Below, piece by piece: positions 14,133 through 19,567 of a stretch of 64,000 bases of DNA (within the stretch, counting starts at the first letter, position 1; the number at the start of each line of letters is the position of its first letter). Made by a program: the position numbers and the translations under genes. Below the pieces are notes generated by a model. It was not told the DNA's origin. It did not search any database and saw only the letters and a list, made by a program, of their open reading frames with translations. Source of the DNA: Phycisphaerales bacterium (GTDB lineage: Bacteria; Planctomycetota; Phycisphaerae; Phycisphaerales; SM1A02); contig JAKVBT010000005.1 in NCBI GenBank assembly GCA_022446905.1, positions 370,506 to 434,505 on the forward strand, written 5' to 3'.

Positions 14133-14993
14133 TTGAACCGATATGCGGGCATCTGTGTGATGGTCACCATGTTGTCATCTAGTTGTGTCATGGATGATCT
14201 CAATGACATCGGGCGGGTGTTTGAGACTCCTACGCCCGGGGAGGCCGCCCGTTGGGCACTTGACACGCATGATGTGAACAAGCGACGTGAGGGCATCGTC
14301 TTGTTGTCAACGGCTTCGTTTGGCGGCGCCGAGCCCTATCTCAAGTTGTATCGCATGTCTGTCGAGGATGATGACAACCCACTTGTCAAATCTGCGGCGA
14401 TTGCTGCCTTGGCTCGGCATGGATCGCCCGAGGATGCGCTTTTGATTGCGCCTTGGTGCGAACAGAAAGTGACTGAGAGTGTCACCATTCGCTGGGCAGC
14501 GGTGCAGGGCTTGCAGCGTCTCCATAATCGGGATGTGGTTCCTGTACTCATTCGCGTGGCCCGAGACTGGTCCGAGCAAGCTGAAGTGCGTAGCGCCGCT
14601 TGTGTCGCCATGGGTCAGTACCCCGAAGATCGCGTGGTGCAGGCGCTCATTGACGTGCTTGATGCCCGGGAACTGGCAATCAATTCAGATGCAGCCGAGG
14701 CGCTGTCAGAACTGACCGGGCAGGATTTCGGGTTTGATCTTGTGGCGTGGCAGGCCTGGTACGAAGAGACTTTGAAACAGTCCAAGAGCCCGTTTGCAGC
14801 TCAGCGGTCATACACCTATCCGACCTACTCGCGTGACAAGGTCTGGTGGGAGCACATCGCTTTCTGGCTAGATGAACAGTACGAGCCGAGTTTGCAGCCG
14901 ATCGGCCTGCGTTCAGATGATCAGCGACGCACGTGGGATGACTTTGACGGTGGGGCCACGACCGATTCGCCGGGCGCCGCCGGCGATGGCTAA
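14133..14993 (+). CDS. HEAT-repeat-like putative lipoprotein
   Basis: TTG 14133 start gives a short hydrophobic leader with candidate lipobox (MLSSSC); HEAT-like helical repeats (SAAIAALARHGSPEDA, RSAACVAMGQYPEDRVVQALIDVL). Confidence 0.65.
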   Translation: MNRYAGICVMVTMLSSSCVMDDLNDIGRVFETPTPGEAARWALDTHDVNKRREGIVLLSTASFGGAEPYLKLYRMSVEDDDNPLVKSAAIAALARHGSPEDALLIAPWCEQKVTESVTIRWAAVQGLQRLHNRDVVPVLIRVARDWSEQAEVRSAACVAMGQYPEDRVVQALIDVLDARELAINSDAAEALSELTGQDFGFDLVAWQAWYEETLKQSKSPFAAQRSYTYPTYSRDKVWWEHIAFWLDEQYEPSLQPIGLRSDDQRRTWDDFDGGATTDSPGAAGDG

Positions 14994-16566
14994 TACAAAA
15001 ACGCCTGATCCAGACTCTCAGTCCTCTGCTGTACATGCTGAGGATGGTCAGATAGCGGCCGGGCCGCTTGCAGGGCGGTCATTGATTGCGGCCATCTTGA
15101 TCGTTGGATTGCCAGTGCTCTTTCAGAATCTCATGGGCGCTTGCGTAGGCTTATTTGACAAGATGCTGGTGGGGGGCCTTTCAGAGGAGACGATTGTCCC
15201 GGCGATGGACGGTCTGGGCATTGGCTCCTATGTGACGTGGCTGATGGCGATCGCCATGAGTGGACTTGGCATTGGAGGGCAGGCCATCATCGCGCGGGCG
15301 ATTGGTCGTGGTGATGTTCGCGAAGGTGGGCTGGCCTTGGCTCAAGCGATGCTCTTATCCCTGCTTTGGGGGGTGTTGGTTGGCGGCCTGATCTGGGTGC
15401 TGGCCCCAATGTTGGCGACGCTCTGCGGCTTAACAGGTGCTTCAAGTGCGTACTGCACGGACTACGTGCGCATGGTCATTCTGTCACTGCCGTTTACTGG
15501 AATCGTGATGGTTGGGGCGATGTGTATGGCAGGCGCAGGAGAAACGCTCCGTCCTGCGGTGATTTCAATATTTGTGAACATCGTGAATGTGGTTGGCTCC
15601 TGGTGGTTGTCTGGAGCGATGTTCCGGATTGGTTCCTGGGAGGTGCAGAGTGAATGGCAATTCGACTTTGATATTGTCGGAATTGCTGCGGGGACTGCAT
15701 TGGGATGGTTGGTTGGGGGTGTGCTCACTCTCATGGTGCTCTTCAGGGGGATCAAAGATCTTCGGCTCGAACTACAGCTGATCGAACCTGTACGTCAGAT
15801 GATCAAACGGATCATTCGCGTGGGACTGCCGAACTTTTTTGAAGGCATGTCCATGTGGGGGGCCAATCTCGTTGTACTTGTGATGATCGGCTGGGTGGCC
15901 TATCGGCAGCGTGGCGGCACTTCGGAGATGGCGGGCGTTGAGCAGGGCACTGCACTGCCGTCAGCACTTGGCAGTGAATCCATGATGGCGGTCGATGTCA
16001 GCGGTGTTGAGTCAGCCAATGTGGTGGAGGGTCTCGCAGGGGCGCACATCATTGCTGTGCAGTGGGAGTCGTTCAGTTTTCTGCCCGGCTTTGCGATTGG
16101 CACGGCAGCAGCTGCAATTGCTGGTCAGTATGTGGGGGCTGGCAATATTCGCATGGCCAAACATGCGGTGTGGGTCTGCACGGGCATTGGCGTGTTGCTG
16201 ATGGGGCTCATCGGCCTGGTGTACATCTTTGCAGGCAGGCCAATGACAGCGATGATCAGCGATGAGCCACTGTTCATGGAGATCGTTCCAGAATTGCTAC
16301 TAATCTGTGGGGTTACTCAGGTGTTTTTTGCAGTAGCGATGGTCGTTCGACAGGCCCTTCGTGGTGTGGGCGACACGACGTGGACATTCATCATTACTAC
16401 TGGAAGCAGTTATGGCATCCGGCTGCCCATTGCGTGGTATCTCGGGGTTCATCTTGAAATGGGCTTGCCCGGCATCTGGATCGGTTTGTGTGGCGAACTG
16501 GGTATCCGCGCGTTGTTGTTTGTCGCGCGTTTCCTGCACGGTGGTTGGGCGACACGCCAGGTGTGA
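14986..16566 (+). CDS. MATE family efflux transporter
   Basis: Twelve-TM-like protein with MATE motifs (VGLFDKMLVGGLSEE, GIGGQAIIARAIGRGD). Confidence 0.88.
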   Translation: MANTKTPDPDSQSSAVHAEDGQIAAGPLAGRSLIAAILIVGLPVLFQNLMGACVGLFDKMLVGGLSEETIVPAMDGLGIGSYVTWLMAIAMSGLGIGGQAIIARAIGRGDVREGGLALAQAMLLSLLWGVLVGGLIWVLAPMLATLCGLTGASSAYCTDYVRMVILSLPFTGIVMVGAMCMAGAGETLRPAVISIFVNIVNVVGSWWLSGAMFRIGSWEVQSEWQFDFDIVGIAAGTALGWLVGGVLTLMVLFRGIKDLRLELQLIEPVRQMIKRIIRVGLPNFFEGMSMWGANLVVLVMIGWVAYRQRGGTSEMAGVEQGTALPSALGSESMMAVDVSGVESANVVEGLAGAHIIAVQWESFSFLPGFAIGTAAAAIAGQYVGAGNIRMAKHAVWVCTGIGVLLMGLIGLVYIFAGRPMTAMISDEPLFMEIVPELLLICGVTQVFFAVAMVVRQALRGVGDTTWTFIITTGSSYGIRLPIAWYLGVHLEMGLPGIWIGLCGELGIRALLFVARFLHGGWATRQV

Positions 16567-16593
16567 TGAACTTGCAGTAGATCCTGAAGTGGA

Positions 16594-17256
16594 TCAGTCA
16601 ACTGGTGAGGTGTCTGGCATTTCTTCGGGAGCTTCTGTCTTCGCTTGCGCTTCCGCTGCTGCTTTGGCTTGGGCTTGGGCTGCCTTGATGCGGTCAACCT
16701 TGCTCTTATCCGGGGACAGAATCAGGGTCATTCGGCGGCCTGCCATGCGTGGTGGCATATCAACCTTGGATATGTCCGCGAGGTTTTCGATGACTGATGC
16801 CATGCGTTCGTTGCCGCGTTCCTTGTGAAGCATTTCTCGGCCACGGAAGTTTTGGACGATTTGCACCTTGTGTCCATCCATCAGGAACTTGCGGGCCTGA
16901 GCCATGCGGATGCCGATGTCGTGTGGGTCAATCTTCATGGATCGCCCAAGACGCACTTCCTTCATCTCGGCAGTTTTCGATTTTGCGCGGTTTGACTTTT
17001 CCTTTTTCGACTGTTCGTACCGATATTTGCCGAAGTCCAGTATCCGACAGACTGGGGGATCTGCCTCTGGCGACACTTCGACCAGATCGAGACCGGCTTG
17101 TTGGGCTAATTGCAGCGCTTCGGGGACATCGACAACCCCAACCATTTCCTCGTTCTGGTCAATCAGACGAATGGGGGAGCGGCGGATTTGGTCATTGATG
17201 CGCGGCAGGCGTCTCTGGTTTTCCTGCGGTCGTAGGTAGCGGCGTCGGCGGGCGAT
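16594..17256 (-). CDS. infC: translation initiation factor IF-3, proposed non-canonical ATC (AUC) start
   Basis: IF-3 homology extends upstream of the listed ATG (17145) through RPQENQRRLPRINDQIRRSPIRLIDQNEEMVGVVDVPEALQLAQ; in-frame TGA at 17262-17260; ATC at 17256 lies 8 nt after AGGAG. Confidence 0.88.
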   Translation of the reverse strand: MARRRRYLRPQENQRRLPRINDQIRRSPIRLIDQNEEMVGVVDVPEALQLAQQAGLDLVEVSPEADPPVCRILDFGKYRYEQSKKEKSNRAKSKTAEMKEVRLGRSMKIDPHDIGIRMAQARKFLMDGHKVQIVQNFRGREMLHKERGNERMASVIENLADISKVDMPPRMAGRRMTLILSPDKSKVDRIKAAQAQAKAAAEAQAKTEAPEEMPDTSPVD

Positions 17257-17479
17257 AAGTCAATCTCCTGAGAATGGTCAAGCCACGACGGCATCGGCCT
17301 CGTGGGTCGGGCAGTAGTCTTTTTGTGAGTGGAGCAGAAAGTTGCGGTGATTCATGCGTCAGAATCATCGAAAGATCGTGTCATGTTGACATCGGTCATG
17401 CAGTAGTGCTCCGGCCGGTGGTCCTTCCACCGTGATGCCCCACTGTACATCCGGACTCGGCTGTGATCAAGGAAGGTCT

Positions 17480-19567
17480 TCACGCTGGTGTGGCTGCCTC
17501 TGGAAACAGGATCTCTGTTAGGCCCGAGACGCGACGCTGATGGACTTCATCGGCCAGCGCCTCGATAAAGGCATCCATTGGCACCGCGCCCAAATCACGC
17601 TCGATGCCCCGTGCACGCACACTGACGGTCCCAGCCTCCGCGTCGCGGGGGCCAACGATCAGGAGATAGGGGATTTTCATTTCAGCCGCCACTCGAATTC
17701 TTGCCTGCAGGCGTTCATTGGAGGCATCGATGGTGGCTCTGCGTCCAGAGGTGACCAGCGATTCATGGACCCGCTTGGCATACTCGGCGGACTTTTCGCT
17801 GACCGGGAGTACACGAACTTGTTCGGGAGCAATCCAGGCGGGGAAGGCGCCAGCAAAGTGCTCAATCAGGAAACCGACGAATCGCTCCATGGATCCAAAG
17901 GGCGCTCTGTGAATCATCACAGGTCGATGGGATGCATTGTCTGTTCCGATGTAGGACAGATCGAAGCGTTCGGGGAGGTTGTAGTCAACCTGCACCGTGC
18001 CAAGTTGCCATCGTCGTCCGATGGTGTCAGCAACTACAAAGTCAATCTTCGGTCCGTAGAAGGCAGCTTCTCCCGGCTCGCTCGTGAAACTTGCGCCAAG
18101 TTGTTCAGCGGCAGTCTGGCAGGCTGCTTCGGCACGGTCCCAGTTGGCCGGATCGCCGACATACTTGCTGGAATCAGGATCGCGCAGGCCGACACGAACA
18201 TCAAAGGTCTCAATTCCGAGCGTGGAAAAGATGATCTTGACCAATTCAAGGCATCCTGCAATCTCATCGAGCAGTTGGTCTTCGGTGCAGAAGAGATGTG
18301 CATCATCCTGGGTGAATCCTCGGACTCGCAGCATGCCACCAAGTTCTCCTGACTGCTCGTAGCGATACACCGTGCCGAATTCAGCCAGTCTTACGGGCAA
18401 GTCGCGGTAACTACGCGGTTGTCCCTTATAGATCCGGATATGCATCGGGCAGTTCATCGGCTTGAGCAGGTATCCGTCCACATCCCCCTCACGCAGCCTG
18501 TTGGAGAGGTCTGCACAGGTGCACCCTTCATTGACTAGCGCCGCCATTTGGTCTGGATCGACCAGAGGCGGGAACTGTGAGTCCTGGTAATAGGGGAAGT
18601 GGCCTGATGTGCGAAACAGGTCGAGTTTTCCAACGTGTGGAGTGAAGACCTGTTCATACCCTTGGCGGACCAATTCGCGGCCAATGAAGTCCTGCAACTC
18701 CTGCCGAACCACAGCCCCGGCTGGGGTCCACAGGATGAGTCCTTGGCCAACCATCTCATCAATCTGGAACAGGCCGAGTTTGCGACCAAGGACTCGATGG
18801 TCTCGTTTGCGGGCCTCTTCAAGTTGTTCAAGGTGTTCTTTGAGATGTGTGCGGTGGGCAAATGCGGTTCCATATACACGTGTCAGTCGATCCGAATTGG
18901 CATCCCCATGCCAGTAACTCGAAGCCACAGACATAATCTTGGCTGCGCCAATGCGCCCGGTGCTTGGGACATGTGGCCCCCGGCAGAGATCGTCCCACGC
19001 GTCATCGGCTTCGCCGGTGGCGTACCAGGTCAGTGTTTCGGCGCCTGTATCAATGGCGCGTTGAGCGTTGTCGATCTTGTACTTGCTGGCATCTGCCTGC
19101 AGTCGTGCCATGCCTTCCGCAACAGAGCAGGCGTGTCGGACAAATGGGCGATCTTCCGCGATGATTTCAGCCATGATCGCTTCGATCCGCTCAAAGTCAT
19201 CGCTGCTGATTGCCTTCCCCTCCGGCATTGCGATGTCGTAATAAAACCCGCCGTCAACCGGAGGCCCGTAGACGAGTTGGGCCTCTGGGTAGACCCGTTG
19301 GATGGCCTCGGCCATGACATGTGCGGCGCTGTGGCGGATGAGCCACAGCGCGTCATCGTCAGCATGGGCTTTCCCCCGGGGAAGGGTGATCAGGGACAGG
19401 TGGACATTCGATTCAATGACCTCATCAAGTCCGACCAGCGTGCCATCAATCTTGGCACCGACAGCTGCTTTGGCAAGTCCTGGGCCAATGTCAGCTGCCA
19501 CCTCGGCTGGCGAAACCGGTCTGTCGAATGACCGAGTGGATCCATCTGGCAAGGTGATCGTGGGCAT
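17480..19567 (-). CDS. thrS: threonyl-tRNA synthetase
   Basis: N-terminal TGS domain (MPTITLPDGSTRSF), LKPMNCPMHIRIYK, class II motifs. Confidence 0.96.
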   Translation of the reverse strand: MPTITLPDGSTRSFDRPVSPAEVAADIGPGLAKAAVGAKIDGTLVGLDEVIESNVHLSLITLPRGKAHADDDALWLIRHSAAHVMAEAIQRVYPEAQLVYGPPVDGGFYYDIAMPEGKAISSDDFERIEAIMAEIIAEDRPFVRHACSVAEGMARLQADASKYKIDNAQRAIDTGAETLTWYATGEADDAWDDLCRGPHVPSTGRIGAAKIMSVASSYWHGDANSDRLTRVYGTAFAHRTHLKEHLEQLEEARKRDHRVLGRKLGLFQIDEMVGQGLILWTPAGAVVRQELQDFIGRELVRQGYEQVFTPHVGKLDLFRTSGHFPYYQDSQFPPLVDPDQMAALVNEGCTCADLSNRLREGDVDGYLLKPMNCPMHIRIYKGQPRSYRDLPVRLAEFGTVYRYEQSGELGGMLRVRGFTQDDAHLFCTEDQLLDEIAGCLELVKIIFSTLGIETFDVRVGLRDPDSSKYVGDPANWDRAEAACQTAAEQLGASFTSEPGEAAFYGPKIDFVVADTIGRRWQLGTVQVDYNLPERFDLSYIGTDNASHRPVMIHRAPFGSMERFVGFLIEHFAGAFPAWIAPEQVRVLPVSEKSAEYAKRVHESLVTSGRRATIDASNERLQARIRVAAEMKIPYLLIVGPRDAEAGTVSVRARGIERDLGAVPMDAFIEALADEVHQRRVSGLTEILFPEAATPA

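Follow-up and report, generated by a model that had tools for sequence, protein, structure and literature searches.

The infC gene in this stretch of planctomycete DNA very probably initiates at an AUC codon (first base at 17256), a poor initiator that would let IF3 repress its own translation; we put the probability of this reading at roughly 0.86. The AUC start codon is strongly supported by the sequence and its relatives, and autoregulation through that codon is likely, given what is known of the infC family and the absence of AUG on the IF3 tree. With the AUC start, the N-terminus of this essential protein is corrected throughout a large order whose members are mostly uncultured, and gene finders confined to ATG, GTG, and TTG would clip or misplace the infC N-terminus in the Phycisphaerales.

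The infC reading frame begins at ATC

The window (the whole 64,000-nucleotide stretch analyzed) comes from the 2.58-Mb draft genome, in 79 contigs, of a marine planctomycete with a single infC copy. The product of the minus-strand infC frame matched the NCBIfam infC equivalog at 183.5 bits (cut-off 60) and PDB IF-3 chains at E 1e-42, and Pfam matched both IF3_N and IF3_C, so that both domains are intact. The features of the start region are as follows.

16594..17256, minus strand: infC coding sequence from ATC, 220 codons plus stop; IF-3, with NCBIfam, Pfam, and PDB matches
17265..17269, minus strand: Shine-Dalgarno AGGAG, 8-nt gap to the ATC
17260..17262, minus strand: in-frame TGA, two codons ahead of the ATC
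17257..17259, minus strand: CTT, the sole codon separating the TGA from the ATC
17254..17256, minus strand: putative ATC initiation codon; ATC, ATT, ATA, or CTG in the same column in 174/174 non-redundant relatives
17143..17145, minus strand: first in-frame ATG, an internal Met of the IF3_N domain rather than the start

Read directly on the minus strand, the infC start is CTC AGGAG ATTGACTT ATC GCC CGC CGA CGC CGC TAC. The TGA at 17262-17260 lies in frame and thereby excludes any in-frame start upstream of it, and direct reading found no ATG, GTG, or TTG in the IF3 frame between this stop and the IF3 domain. A sequence-only reading had proposed initiation at this ATC, with AGGAG (17269-17265) 8 nt ahead of it and only CTT and ATC left after the TGA. 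Its coordinates all proved right when the sequence was read again, as did the spacing and the two remaining codons, and the start itself is supported by position, Shine-Dalgarno motif, in-frame stop, and conservation throughout the order. One small correction is needed, in that CTG 17208-17206 and internal ATC and ATT codons also precede the ATG at 17145. The same reading had IF-3 homology extending upstream of that ATG, and the domain match bears this out: in the ATC-initiated protein, Pfam IF3_N covers residues 20 to 88 from profile position 1 (105.4 bits), and the positions matched show that translation must begin upstream of the ATG for the domain to be complete.

The start column holds ATH or CTG codons throughout the order

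We collected infC from the window's family, order, class, and phylum and from named GTDB genomes, the nearest of which are marine Phycisphaerales assemblies. An automatic start caller based on Shine-Dalgarno energy alone was dropped because in long open frames it chose false starts at scattered positions, and was replaced by alignment of the N-termini and reading of the start column. The alignment held 175 order sequences, close named relatives included and duplicates removed; the column could be read in 174 (167 aligned rows and 7 with long extensions, read by eye), the remaining row ending at a contig edge. Among these 174 non-redundant sequences, the codon was ATC in 142, ATT in 23, ATA in 7, and CTG in 2, so the layout seen in the window is no chance occurrence. 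ATG, GTG, or TTG was found in 0/174 sequences of the order and close named relatives, most of them from metagenome assemblies and not mutually independent. The sequence-only reading had set relatives with ATG in this column as its refutation beforehand; there were none, and its claim stands.

A Shine-Dalgarno-like motif precedes all 167 aligned starts (just AGG in three), mostly with a gap of 7 to 10 nt. Some loci have a stop no more than 30 codons ahead of the domain; among these, an ATH codon was present and ATG, GTG, and TTG were absent in 18 of 23 loci of the family and 23 of 31 of the order, as well as in the window. ATT, ATC, and ATA also dominate in the class and phylum, where a rougher start caller made some TTG, GTG, and ATG picks.

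The two CTG codons in the start column belong to the window's own family (L149 and L164, repeated as L341 and L340). In seven loci (L004, L005, L006, L012, L017, L162, and L173), a long Gly/Pro/Arg-rich extension precedes the IF3 domain, and the start is still ATC or ATT.

The genes flanking infC in the window are the following.

17480..19567, minus strand: thrS (threonyl-tRNA synthetase), upstream of infC, 223 nt before the ATC; the ATG-start control
14872-16566, plus strand: membrane-transporter-like open reading frame, convergent, next after infC

When the thrS start was read at the same loci by the same method, ATG was found in 25/25 Phycisphaerales loci, indicating that the method detects ATG where it is used. 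thrS lies upstream of infC, mostly 200 to 400 nt away, in at least 36 of the 80 order loci with enough flank, a lower bound since the query was its first 400 residues only. The rpmI-rplT pair was not found directly downstream of infC; rplT is on contig C67 and infC on contig C45.

Alternative start sites and an assembly error

Translation from the ATG at 17145, with the upstream similarity belonging to an untranslated leader, is highly improbable, even though the frame has no standard start codon ahead of it. Such a start would lose 37 codons, (17256-17145)/3, and with them the first 19 positions of IF3_N, including the conserved RIN..IR..P[IV]RL block; the match then begins only at profile position 20 and falls to 80.4 bits. 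Moreover, the protein sequence between the ATC and this ATG is conserved across the order, and of the 175 relatives, 101 have Met at the residue encoded by the ATG and 60 have Gln. Just as little credence can be given to another near-cognate codon within the N-terminal extension, for example CTG 17208-17206. Bacillus IF3 has a short N-terminus, and a start at this CTG would give one equally short. However, the Shine-Dalgarno motif and its spacing suit the ATC, whereas the CTG is badly spaced from any such motif, and close relatives encode this Leu by CTT, CTC, or TTA instead. The ATC column, unlike the CTG, has nearly invariant first two bases and a conserved Shine-Dalgarno geometry. Loss of a normal ATG start through an error in sequencing or assembly can be practically dismissed: the genome is a fragmented draft, but the same arrangement recurs in the 174 non-redundant sequences, which come from many separate assemblies, and the relatives thus already refute an error.

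A poor initiator would link IF3 level to IF3 synthesis

In the mechanism we propose for the AUC start, the good Shine-Dalgarno motif would position the ribosome at the AUC, where pairing of fMet-tRNA would be imperfect and the initiation complexes would be destabilized by IF3 itself. The IF3 level would then feed back on its own synthesis: high IF3 would lower its production, and low IF3 would relieve the repression. An AUC start could instead set a low, constant IF3 level without feedback, as weak starts limit other genes too, such as pcnB in E. coli (Binns and Masters 2002, as cited in PMC1780047). We regard this as unlikely, since IF3 is the very factor that rejects such codons and both of its domains are intact here; some feedback is to be expected if this IF3 keeps its known activity.

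A search of the infC leader against Rfam found no RNA family, folding around the start gave no unusual structure (z -0.2), and a promoter scan of 16500-17600 found none; none of the three pointed to another form of control. An overlapping short frame (17368-17192) considered as a leader peptide was dropped because the leader diverges freely among close relatives; only AGGAG and ATCGC are kept in that comparison, which leaves out rows L014 and L030.

Non-AUG starts of infC have long been known and are textbook material, and the AUC-initiated infC of the Phycisphaerales adds one more case. The negative feedback by IF3 in E. coli acts through the AUU start of infC, and control is lost when AUG replaces that codon (Butler, Springer and Grunberg-Manago 1987, as cited in PMC5472188). 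The window's gene resembles that of E. coli in lying downstream of thrS and in having a good Shine-Dalgarno motif and a non-AUG start of the AUH type; it differs in using AUC instead of AUU and in lacking rpmI-rplT next to it, and the feedback proven in E. coli is one that we infer here. Streptomyces infC has the identical ATC start (PMC5472188) in another phylum, whereas in the present case we follow the non-AUG start across an entire order. Non-AUG starts are also found in Xanthomonas (ATT, with peptide support; PMC5559785) and S. aureus (AUA, mapped by ribosome profiling; PMC13009471); the codons and phyla are different, and the experimental support is theirs. According to the sequence-only reading, automatic annotation probably shortens the window's protein by 37 residues; misannotation of infC starts is reported to be common (PMC5472188, PMC3091656, PMC5559785). 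No paper on infC starts in Planctomycetota was found in the literature searched.

Start-codon changes avoid ATG

A quick IF3 tree (173 rows), which yields only minimum counts, showed at least 20 start-codon changes, of which about six were to ATA and none to ATG. All of these start codons would be decoded as fMet, and switching to ATG would thus leave the protein unaltered; avoidance of ATG is the pattern expected where a poor initiator is maintained. The absence of AUG throughout the order, together with exchange among poor codons, supports the poor start itself as the selected trait. For the Planctomycetota, we lean toward a wider reading, somewhat less firmly than for the AUC start: selection would hold a start codon that IF3 rejects and leave its identity free, with AUC, AUU, AUA, and rarely CUG in the Phycisphaerales and ACG throughout another order.

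A second planctomycete order appears to use ACG

In this different order (14 species in three families), the infC start region shows a Shine-Dalgarno motif, about 7 nt, and then ACG in 13/14 species, where infC appears to initiate at that codon. The ACG loci (L240, L247, L333-L339, and L342-L345) have a strong Shine-Dalgarno motif upstream. At L240, none of the 16 codons that separate an in-frame TAA from the domain is ATG, GTG, TTG, CTG, or ATH, leaving only the ACG. The case is less clear-cut at three of the four f89 loci (L343-L345), where other candidate starts are close by, and the one exception, L332, has ATT or TTG. No description of a natural, conserved ACG start of infC was found in the literature searched, of which coverage was partial, and this result may be newer than the AUC finding. 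This order can serve as a natural comparison when asking how weak a start codon the infC feedback can tolerate.

Bases and stops around the start codon

Several minor features accompany the infC starts of the Phycisphaerales. The base before the start (17257 in the window) is a pyrimidine in 164/167 infC genes versus 21/31 thrS genes, a contrast that is indicative only, as the thrS set spans other phyla and the rows are related. Base -3 is almost never T. An in-frame stop lies exactly two codons ahead of the start in 23/167 relatives (17260-17262 in the window), more commonly than at neighboring positions; in a model mRNA with an AUU variant, a UAA is also placed two codons ahead of the start (PMC8266586).
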